Source: a virus
Virus record (IMG/VR): IMGVR_UViG_3300044639_001241
Location: 1 to 21,385 of that record
DNA: 21,385 bases
Direction: 5' to 3' (one strand)
Shown: positions 18,772 through 21,385 of the stretch, one piece after another
How the letters are laid out: every line of letters starts with the position of its first letter
How positions within the stretch are numbered: position 1 is the stretch's first letter
Made by a program: the position numbers and the translations under genes
Notes under the pieces: generated by a model
What the model was told of the DNA's origin: nothing
The model's database searches: none
Seen by the model: only the letters and a program-made list of their open reading frames with translations

Positions 18772-19263
18772 ATGCCAATTAGCAAAAAAACAGACGGATG
18801 GTATTGGGGTTCAAAAGGACCATTTGCAAGCAAACAAAAAGCAATTCAAGTCGGACAAGCCGCACACGCATCCGGTTTTAAAGAGGAAGCAATTATGGAC
18901 AATCAATTAATTGGCACATTTGTCAGCACATTGTTGCACTCGGCAACGTTGACTCATTTAATGCATTTTAAAACGTTGTCATATTCAGAACACGTTGCCC
19001 TTGCCGGTTATTACGATTCAATTCCCGATTTGGTTGACGGGCTTGTGGAATCAATCCAAGGCGCGTACGAAGTCATCATTGAACCATATCCATCAATGTT
19101 CCGCACAGGCGATGCTGAACCATTGGCATATATGATAAGCCTACGCGATTACGTGCAAAATTACCGCGGTGAAATGCCACAAGACAATGAAATCCAAAAC
19201 GAAATTGACAACGTGGCAAATTTGCTTAATACAACCGTGTACAAATTAAAATTTTTAAAATAA
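18772..19263 (+). CDS. DUF5856-like phage protein with N-terminal extension and internal start
   Basis: 163 residues from ATG 18772 (AGGGG at 18761-18765, 6 bases upstream). Residues 1-40 (TDGWYWGSKGPFASKQKAIQ, AAHASGFKEE) look like a separate small module. From residue 42 on, 'MDNQLIGTFVSTLLHSATLT', 'SYSEHVALAGYYDSIPDLVD' and 'NEIDNVANLLNTTVYKLKFL' match the DUF5856-type helical-bundle proteins of phages, whose shape recalls ferritin-like or Dps-like folds. An in-frame ATG at 18895 has its own strong ribosome binding site (AGAGGA, 18882-18887, 7 bases away) and would give a 122-residue second product. Function unknown. Confidence 0.75.
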   Translation: MPISKKTDGWYWGSKGPFASKQKAIQVGQAAHASGFKEEAIMDNQLIGTFVSTLLHSATLTHLMHFKTLSYSEHVALAGYYDSIPDLVDGLVESIQGAYEVIIEPYPSMFRTGDAEPLAYMISLRDYVQNYRGEMPQDNEIQNEIDNVANLLNTTVYKLKFLK

Positions 19264-19279
19264 TTAACACAAACAAGAT

Positions 19280-19828
19280 ATGACAAAATTAGCAATCAAA
19301 TACAAAAAAACAACCGAACTTACAGCATACGCAAAAAACTCACGCACGCACAGCGATGAGCAAATTGCGCAATTGGTGGCAAGCCTACGTGAATTTGGGT
19401 TTACAAATCCGATATTGATTGACGCAAAAAACAGCATTATTGCCGGTCATGGTCGGCTAAAAGCGGCTCAAGAACTTGGTTACGAAACCGTACCCACAAT
19501 TGAACTTGGCGAATTAACCGAACAACAACAACAAGCGTACATCATTGCTGACAACAAATTAGCATTAAACGCGGGTTGGGATAATGAATTGCTTTTATTT
19601 GAAATCCAACAATTGCAAAACGCTGGATTTGACGTTTCATTAATTGGCTTTAATGTTGATGAATTAAAAGCATTAAATTTTGACGATGCTGAAATTGACG
19701 AAGATTTTAAAGAGCCATCCGATGACAGCCGTAATACATTGTTAATTGAATGTACAGGCGAACGTGAATTGGAAACGCTTTATGAAGAAATGCAAAAGCG
19801 AGGTTTTGAGTGCAAAATTATGAGTTAA
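19280..19828 (+). CDS. ParB/Srx-like N-terminal domain protein
   Basis: 182 residues. The ParB N-terminal nuclease/CTPase-like domain covers about residues 8-95: 'ELTAYAKNSRTHSDEQI', 'SLREFGFTNPILI', 'IIAGHGRLKAAQELG' (the G-x-G-R motif) and 'IADNKLALNAGW'. In many phages this domain is joined to a DNA methylase; here the methylase is missing and only an acidic tail and a short alpha/beta ending (NTLLIECTGERELETLYEEM, GFECKIM) follow. The start lacks a strong Shine-Dalgarno site. Its end overlaps the next gene by 19 bases, so it probably works with the ABC-ATPase/GNAT fusion. A DNA-targeting role is likely; the reaction is unknown. Confidence 0.8.
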   Translation: MTKLAIKYKKTTELTAYAKNSRTHSDEQIAQLVASLREFGFTNPILIDAKNSIIAGHGRLKAAQELGYETVPTIELGELTEQQQQAYIIADNKLALNAGWDNELLLFEIQQLQNAGFDVSLIGFNVDELKALNFDDAEIDEDFKEPSDDSRNTLLIECTGERELETLYEEMQKRGFECKIMS

Positions 19829-20913
19829 CCCTTGCATCGCCTGTAGCCAAATCATTTCGCGCAATTAAAGCGGCAAACAGCCTTGACATTGATGCTGAGA
19901 AAAAATCAACGCATCATTTCCAAGTCAAAGCCGACATACAAAGCGCATACAGCATAGGTTTAATCGTAGGCGCGTCAGGAAGCGGTAAGACGACGTTGGC
20001 AAAGCATATATGGGGTAATGAGTGTTTTAATGAAATACTCGACCCACAACGCCCAATTATTGAGCAATTTCCCGAATCAATGTCATACGACCAATGCGCG
20101 GAAATGTTATGTGGCGTTGGCTTAACAAGCGTGCCATGTTGGATACGACCCGCATACACGTTATCTAATGGTCAAAAGGCACGTGCGGAATGCGCGTTAC
20201 AAATGGCGCGTGAAGATGGAATGATTGTCATTGACGAATGGACAAGCGTTGTTGACCGAACCGTTGCCAAAGTTATGAGCCATTGCATACAGAAACACGC
20301 ACGCAAAACGGCAAAACGCATTGTATTATTGTCATGTCATTACGACGTTGTTGAATGGTTAAACCCTGATTGGGTCATTGACGCTAACAAACAGACGTAC
20401 ACCGACCGGAGGTCACTTTGGCGAGACTATCAACGCACAGAACGGCTTGAATTTAACGTGTATGAGACCGATAGGCACACATGGCGTTACTTTAGCCGTT
20501 ATCATTATTTAAGCGAGAATTTAGCCGGTGGTAAGCAATTGTTTTATGGCTTATGGGATGGCTCAAATCAAATTGGCTTTTTAGCCTTTTCCAATTACGT
20601 GCCACATCGCGCTGGCACAATGATGCAATTACATTTCAATCGTCTTGTAATACACCCCGATTATTGTGGGTTTGGCTTAGGCATACATTTTTTAAACAAA
20701 TGCGCCAAATTGGTACATGAGAAAAATTATGAGGTCATGGGCAAATTTTCAAGCATACCCGTGTATAACGCGTTAAGGCGCGACCCCAAATGGCGATTGA
20801 ACGCTGTGATGCGTCAACATAAGATAAGCGTTGGTGGCAATATGCAACGTAAGGATGGTTTTAGAAAAGATGTTAAAGCGTGGTCATTTAAATATGCCAA
20901 CGATACCAATTAA
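19810..20913 (+). CDS. ABC-type ATPase fused to GNAT acyltransferase domain (predicted DNA-modification factor)
   Basis: 367 residues from a GTG start (19810), supported by GAGG (19800-19803) 6 bases upstream. The N-terminal ABC ATPase has Walker A GASGSGKTT (54-62), signature LSNGQKARAE (118-127), Walker B MIVIDEWTS (138-146) with catalytic Glu143, and His177 in LSCHYDV. There is no membrane domain, so it is not a transporter. Residues about 212-330 form a GNAT fold: 'WRYFSRYHYLSENL', 'QIGFLAFSNYV' and the acyl-CoA loop 'HPDYCGFGLGIHFL' (282-295). The HYL plus GNAT layout recalls phage Mu Mom, which modifies adenine in DNA; a similar role here is inference. It overlaps the ParB-like and HNH genes on either side. 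Confidence 0.85.
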   Translation: MQNYELTLASPVAKSFRAIKAANSLDIDAEKKSTHHFQVKADIQSAYSIGLIVGASGSGKTTLAKHIWGNECFNEILDPQRPIIEQFPESMSYDQCAEMLCGVGLTSVPCWIRPAYTLSNGQKARAECALQMAREDGMIVIDEWTSVVDRTVAKVMSHCIQKHARKTAKRIVLLSCHYDVVEWLNPDWVIDANKQTYTDRRSLWRDYQRTERLEFNVYETDRHTWRYFSRYHYLSENLAGGKQLFYGLWDGSNQIGFLAFSNYVPHRAGTMMQLHFNRLVIHPDYCGFGLGIHFLNKCAKLVHEKNYEVMGKFSSIPVYNALRRDPKWRLNAVMRQHKISVGGNMQRKDGFRKDVKAWSFKYANDTN

Positions 20914-21340
20914 CACCAAATGCGCAACGTTAGGCTGTCATAACATTAAGTCCAAGTTAAACGCTAATTGCATACAACATGGCGGCTATGATGAACGCGT
21001 GTACAACCAAAAGTACAACAGCACTAAACAACGTAAAGATTTCAACGCCAAATACAATACGCGTCAATGGCAAGCGTTACGCCAAATACAATTAAGTAAA
21101 AACCCTATATGTGCAGGGTGCAACGCAAACGGCATCATTACCCCTGCAAACGTTGTTGACCATTTGTTTCCATGGTCTCAAATAAGCGAACAAGCATTTT
21201 TTATTAATCGCTTTCAAAGCCTATGCGTCACACATCACGCAGAAAAAACCCAATTGGAACAAAGGGGCATATACAGGGCATACGGCAACCCATGTATTGA
21301 TTACAAACAAGGCGATTATTTGCGTGTAATGGGCGTTTAA
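20894..21340 (+). CDS. HNH endonuclease, terminase-adjacent type
   Basis: 148 residues from ATG 20894, overlapping the preceding gene by 20 bases; an upstream in-frame ATG at 20831 lies deep in that gene. The HNH core is clear: 'NPICAGCNANG' (Cys73, Cys76), 'VVDHLFPWSQ' (Asp89, His90), 'FQSLCVTHHAEKTQ' (Cys111, His114, His115). An extra N-terminal cluster, Cys10, Cys15, Cys26 and His29, may be a zinc knuckle. HNH proteins of this size are usually encoded directly before the terminase genes and assist DNA cleavage at packaging, so terminase probably follows beyond the window. It could also serve the modification module upstream. Confidence 0.88.
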   Translation: MPTIPINTKCATLGCHNIKSKLNANCIQHGGYDERVYNQKYNSTKQRKDFNAKYNTRQWQALRQIQLSKNPICAGCNANGIITPANVVDHLFPWSQISEQAFFINRFQSLCVTHHAEKTQLEQRGIYRAYGNPCIDYKQGDYLRVMGV

Positions 21341-21385
21341 AGCCCGATTGCCGTTGAAACTTAAATATCTGTGTCACCAAAAGAG
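21341..21385. other. Right window edge, no gene seen
   Basis: The last 45 bases after the HNH stop contain no ribosome binding site with start codon and no hairpin that I can support. A terminase gene could begin just outside. Confidence 0.5.

Follow-up and report, generated by a model that had tools for sequence, protein, structure and literature searches.

Among described phage systems, the Mom protein of phage Mu (Pfam PF25680; PDB 8bv8, where it is named methylcarbamoylase) is a GNAT-fold enzyme without an ABC domain, and the Mu record annotates Com (Pfam Zn_ribbon_Com) as its translational regulator. A second family, in which a GNAT domain is coupled to an ABC ATPase, was predicted earlier by Iyer, Zhang, Burroughs and Aravind (2013) to catalyse an uncharacterised acyl modification on a DNA base, phage pT24 being one of the carriers, as restated by these authors in PMC7824862; on the terms of that restatement, DNA acylation by ABC-GNAT proteins is not a new proposal. 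The passages of PMC7824862 that deal with the family mention neither a ParB partner, a tail or a formyltransferase nor an exchange with Mom, some of which the 2013 paper may already describe, and no experimental work on ABC-GNAT turned up in our literature search. A role for ParB-like proteins beside base-modifying enzymes has a precedent in the Dpd system, where the ParB-like ATPase DpdB is the partner of DpdA in inserting 7-deazaguanine (PMC12839542); Dpd differs in exchanging the base by a transglycosylase, without a GNAT.

The window, that is, the whole 21,385-base virus record analysed here, covers the right-hand portion of the genome of a tailed phage and carries, in order, tail genes, lysis genes, replication and recombination genes (Sak, YqaJ, SSB), DUF932, DUF5856 and then a ParB gene, an ABC-GNAT gene and an HNH gene (Table 1). 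The first-pass annotation had described the last three as overlapping genes for a ParB-domain protein, a soluble ABC ATPase joined to a GNAT acyltransferase in one chain, and an HNH nuclease, and this description holds: all three reading frames are present on the plus strand, each overlapping the next; ParB_N in P0001 scores 34 bits against a cut-off of 26.3, with GHGR and ADNK motifs visible in the sequence; P0003 matches an HNH family; and P0002 combines an ABC_tran match above cut-off and weak GNAT matches with a full-length match (2e-82) to PHROG 11143, a group of unknown function. For the HNH gene, ATG 20894 was preferred over TTG 20831 as the start, matching the relative L007.

Table 1. 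Features at the right end of the window, and gene content of the corresponding slot in related phages.
Feature	Position or loci	Strand	Remarks
DUF5856 protein	18772..19263	+	Pfam DUF5856 4e-17; left border of exchange slot, outside cassette
P0001, ParB/Srx-domain protein, 182 aa	19280..19828	+	ParB_N ~residues 1-135 plus C-terminal tail domain; Pfam ParB_N 3e-8; PHROG 620 2e-55
ParB C-terminal tail, ~last 45 residues, ...NTLLIECTGERELETLYEEMQKRGFECKIMS	19691..19825	+	Proposed adaptor to ABC-GNAT protein
P0002, ABC ATPase-GNAT fusion, 367 aa, GTG start	19810..20913	+	ABC ~1-200, GNAT ~205-362; PHROG 11143
P0003, HNH endonuclease, 148 aa	20894..21340	+	PHROG 144 at 8e-24; neighbour outside modification cassette
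Slot: ParB+ABC-GNAT	L162, L170		
Slot: ParB+TAGT+radical SAM	L179, L180		
Slot: TAGT	L186, L209		
Slot: ParB+TET/JBP with TAGT-like gene	L217		
Slot: ParB+TET/JBP with unnamed gene	L194		
Slot: Mom with HYL triplet	L234, L227, L232		
Slot: empty between DUF5856 and HNH	L239, L221, others		

P0002 shares with the predicted family both its domain pair and its proposed activity, and phage pT24 (of Tenacibaculum) is among its tblastn matches. The motifs of its ABC part are all intact, comprising Walker A (GASGSGKT), signature (LSNGQ), Walker B (VIDE) and H-loop (H177), and the protein has no membrane domain and a globular model; the AlphaFold2 prediction resolves two confident domains (mean pLDDT 89.8), of which the GNAT was also modelled alone. 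Across 58-60 diverse family members G54-K60, L118-S119-G121, D142-E143 and H177 are invariant in the ABC part, as are R278, P283 and G287 in the GNAT part, where the remainder of the acyl-CoA loop (PDYxGxGxG in P0002) is nearly so; none of 60 diverse homologues departs from the HYL triplet H232-Y233-L234. Relatives of P0002 were found in 80 phage records, 56 viral contigs and at least 325 loci in bacterial genomes, with Planctomycetes, Nonomuraea and Rhizobiales frequent among the 80 bacterial-genome loci that were kept, and the cassette is intact in cultured phages such as Leptospira biflexa phage LE3, Rhodococcus phage Jace and Pseudomonas phage Komp_PAO1_1. Further cultured carriers are Leptospira biflexa phage LE4 and Gordonia phage Mariokart, the latter having the formyltransferase as well. 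Of the 76 cassettes with sufficient flanking sequence, 39 have no packaging gene nearby that our clustering, a coarse one that overlooks divergent genes, could recognise, so that not all cassettes are clearly phage-borne. A tree of 98 sequences features three main groups: the window's group and a large second one, both with ParB plus tail, and a third, 14 rows with full support, that contains all the formyltransferase loci in the tree. In one locus, L057 (916-4044), ABC and GNAT are two separate genes, followed by two consecutive DNA methyltransferase-like genes with nearly identical starts.

A survey of whether ParB and ABC/GNAT genes co-occur, proposed in the first-pass annotation, returned the pair in more than 100 loci with similar gene overlap, which measures 19, 22 or 4 nt at 65 of 117 junctions. 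We took a census of partners at 145 ABC-GNAT loci, one of which is cut off, leaving 144 evaluable (assignments for L070, L078, L079, L082 and L126 were set by hand owing to long spacing or fused ORFs). ParB with a tail and without a formyltransferase occurs at 114 of these, including two (L079 and L126) where ParB, tail and ABC-GNAT form a single chain; ParB, tail and formyltransferase occur together at one, a free-standing tail with a formyltransferase at 11, a free-standing tail alone at seven, ParB without a detectable tail at three, and neither ParB nor tail at eight. ParB plus tail thus lies upstream of or fused to ABC-GNAT at 115 of 144 loci (118 with the three tail-less forms), a pairing far above chance, and the two genes constitute one cassette. 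It was also remarked that the ParB gene lacks its usual methylase partner; a methylase is indeed absent, yet this is not unusual, being the norm for the ParB/ABC-GNAT pair. A 'methylase' annotated upstream of ABC-GNAT in Oenococcus and Streptococcus, considered as a ParB-methylase fusion that might represent the missing partner, consists of ParB plus tail and lacks a methylase domain.

The tail, about 40 residues long, was detected at 133 of the 144 loci and is free-standing in 18, mostly as proteins of 42-85 aa. A profile built from long ParB proteins only recovered most of the free tails, with strong matches in L042 (3e-17), L145 (5e-8), L055 (2e-7) and L031 (3e-6) and weak or no matches in others. 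At a threshold of 1e-4 the tail profile matched ParB proteins adjacent to ABC-GNAT and found no tail in those paired with TAGT glycosyltransferase or TET/JBP oxygenase genes of the same phage lineage, although the latter share the ParB core directly upstream of the modification gene and the same slot in related phages. One 42-aa free tail, in Porphyromonas gingivalis prophages L142 (4837-4965) and L161 (2837-2965), is annotated as an 'acr candidate'; it is homologous to the ParB tail and adjoins ABC-GNAT, and is therefore probably a modification-enzyme partner rather than an anti-CRISPR.

To place the cassette in its genomic setting we surveyed the window's own lineage by scanning with the terminase of the close relative L008 (TerL about 80% identical or more), inspecting the upstream genes and confirming them with Pfam. 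The slot between DUF5856 and HNH-TerS-TerL holds alternative DNA-modification cassettes or nothing (Table 1), and the flanking DUF5856 and HNH genes are homologous across all variants. Gene order varies slightly, the L217 cassette lying to the left of DUF5856, and the TET/JBP matches fall under Pfam's cut-off yet are consistent in three loci. ParB genes also stand beside Mom, TAGT or TET/JBP in other loci. Three side observations concern such neighbours: in L179 and L180 (4008-4964) the radical SAM/SPASM protein adjoining TAGT and ParB is a candidate for another unusual DNA modification; a PAPS-reductase-domain protein occupies the slot in L220 (4067-4798) and may be another modification gene or one related to sulfur; and in the Escherichia phage locus L157 (3034-4708) a ParB annotated as a chromosome partitioning protein lies directly 5' of a TAGT glycosyltransferase.

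A second exchange is found in Mu-like phages. The Porphyromonas Mu-like prophages 011a and 012a are 87.6% identical over the 4.7 kb left flank up to the cassette (81% in the last 91 bp), beyond which 012a carries a bona fide Mom (PF25680, 6e-56) and 011a a tail, ABC-GNAT and formyltransferase. Likewise, the Pseudomonas phages JD024 (Mom) and Komp_PAO1_1 (ABC-GNAT) have a common com-containing leader with 70% identity. Com is found 5' of the tail at 8 of the 14 formyltransferase-clade loci as against none of 84 others (Fisher p 2e-8, kinship ignored), in a search that used Mu Com alone and with L113 taken from an earlier Com profile only, on the strength of a visible zinc-ribbon pattern. The formyltransferases of this clade are PurN-like members of Pfam Formyl_trans_N. 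Read by what we take to be the active-site roles of the PurN residues, they retain HPSLLP (HPSPLP in L142) as well as the D-x-G aspartate, but the asparagine two residues before PurN's histidine is replaced; such genes with an altered active-site asparagine lie 3' of ABC-GNAT in L142 (6089-6562), L145 (6074-6691), L147 (1799-2446) and L130 (6359-6964). Their product may carry out a second step in a hypermodification. Formyltransferase matches in L132, L134, L135 and L138 were rejected as out-of-frame artefacts, arising from stop-to-stop ORFs that overlap the GNAT gene.

These data support a model where ParB and ABC-GNAT together constitute a phage DNA-base modification system, in which an ATP-dependent base acylation would be guided by ParB and its tail, and to which we assign a probability of about 0.78. 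Support comes from the exchange of the cassette with Mom, TAGT and TET/JBP genes, from the com gene kept in its Mu-like forms, and also from the ParB genes beside the same modification genes elsewhere, the single-chain forms, the earlier prediction of DNA acylation and the Dpd precedent. The ParB domain would bind phage DNA or steer the enzyme along it, while the C-terminal tail would dock the ABC-GNAT protein; the ABC domains would dimerise on ATP and so gate access of the GNAT to the target base, whereupon the GNAT would move an acyl group from acyl-CoA onto an exocyclic amino group, either N6 of adenine or N4 of cytosine. This acylation would fall late in infection, before packaging, such that the acylated phage DNA might escape cutting by host restriction enzymes. 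The idea of a DNA-acting acyltransferase protecting phage DNA, as put forward in the first-pass annotation, hence gains from the filling of the same slot by known modification genes and from the replacement of Mom with com retained, but is not new as far as ABC-GNAT is concerned.

The likeness to Mom is partial. Both proteins have the GNAT fold and share an invariant HY in the first loop and an arginine in strand 4 (H232, Y233 and R278 in ABC-GNAT; H58, Y59 and R111 in Mom), and this region, aligned by hhalign (E 2.6e-4 in a single comparison, probability 42%), adds to the case for DNA modification. A Mom profile gives the window's GNAT, like most members of its clade, a higher score than any of 1160 shuffled controls. 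However, the window's GNAT has no match to Pfam Mom (PF25680) at E<=0.1, and the matches found in 7 of 58 ABC-GNAT family members are weak (best 6.5e-5). Mom residues S146 and D149 (SxxD), Y159 and N163, invariant in that family, have no invariant counterpart in the ABC-GNAT alignment; conversely, the GxGxG acyl-CoA loop of ABC-GNAT, which had been taken together with HYL to recall Mom, is missing from Mom, so that of these features only the HY...R region is common to both. The structural comparison does not support a close relationship either: the best 50 PDB matches listed by Foldseek for the GNAT domain alone are generic acetyltransferases of the RimI/NatA/PaiA/SpeG types, with 8bv8 not among them, and in a viral fold library the Mom model ranks 10 (TM 0.64/0.54), no better than other GNATs, while the fold search with full-length P0002 is dominated by ABC transporters. 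Judged by sequence and predicted fold, the GNAT domain of ABC-GNAT is not a Mom family member, because Mom has no GxGxG, ABC-GNAT has no SxxD and the fold comparison shows no preference for Mom; ABC-GNAT may nevertheless work like Mom.

These same findings, namely the Foldseek ranking and the missing SxxD and Pfam Mom match, count against DNA modification, as does the occurrence of some cassettes that are not clearly phage-borne. Most GNATs of known function have proteins or small molecules as substrates, and the enzyme could accordingly acylate RNA polymerase, a ribosomal protein or another host protein to aid takeover, as phage Rac does, with ParB and ABC directing the GNAT to nucleoid-bound targets. 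The generic acetyltransferase folds among the listed matches are in keeping with such a role, and PMC7824862 discusses phage GNATs that target RNA polymerase. We nonetheless consider it unlikely, as the cassette trades its position with Mom, TAGT and TET/JBP, keeps com in the Mu-like forms, and has a ParB partner of a kind common to DNA modifiers.

If the DNA-modification reading is true, an uncharacterised DNA modification is present in hundreds of phages and prophages and would alter restriction, sequencing and phage-host range; its maker would be an ATP-dependent base acyltransferase unlike Mom. A bolder version, which we hold only tentatively and rate at somewhat under even odds, posits a widespread family of ATP-gated DNA acyltransferases that differ from Mom and are recruited to DNA by an interchangeable 40-residue tail, on ParB or free, with one clade adding a formyltransferase-like second step that would yield a formylated or one-carbon-extended base, and thus at least one undescribed DNA base. 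Judged against the PMC7824862 restatement, the swap site for DNA-modification genes, the adaptor tail and the alternative partners appear to be new; the 2013 paper may cover the ParB link. It is these three elements that make the DNA-acylation idea testable, the exchange sites providing matched phage pairs (Mom, ABC-GNAT, empty) for measuring modification and the cassette being already present in cultured phages.

A defence or anti-competitor function, either restriction or abortive infection, in which ParB and HNH would act as nucleases and ABC-GNAT would sense or modify, draws on the adjacent HNH gene and on PADLOC matches to mad3 (2e-11) and mad8 (2e-7) in the ABC part. The latter are confined to residues 113-198 and 33-74 of the ABC core, a generic similarity expected for any ABC ATPase, for which reason assignment to MADS was rejected; moreover, the neighbourhoods have no constant toxin-like or restriction gene and the HNH gene is linked to packaging independently of the cassette, making this function very improbable. 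A service of the pair in DNA packaging or partition, with ParB-like loading, an ATPase for DNA handling and the GNAT as accessory, is suggested by the ParB name and by terminase genes adjoining the cassette in many loci, and is the least credible of all, given that Mu-like phages carry the cassette beyond the tail genes and far from terminase, that relatives without it keep their packaging genes, and that the GNAT domain has HYL and R among its most conserved residues.

The HNH gene itself, counted as part of the system in the first-pass annotation, has to be removed from it. In the window's lineage HNH precedes TerS and TerL with any cassette or none, and the 14 loci where it was found directly 3' of ABC-GNAT are all close relatives. 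The window and two further, independent contigs (L002, L003) end at the identical base (...CACCAAAAGAG), 45 nt past the HNH stop (window 21340-21385), and many contigs (L165, L172-L175 and others) begin at about that point, before TerS and some 525 nt 5' of TerL; these shared ends are probably the cos-type genome end of this phage lineage. Fixed before TerS/TerL and beside this genome end, the HNH gene belongs with packaging, in an arrangement like the HNH-terminase packaging module of HK97-type phages, where the HNH endonuclease likewise lies next to the genome end and terminase genes, which accounts for its standing apart from the cassette.
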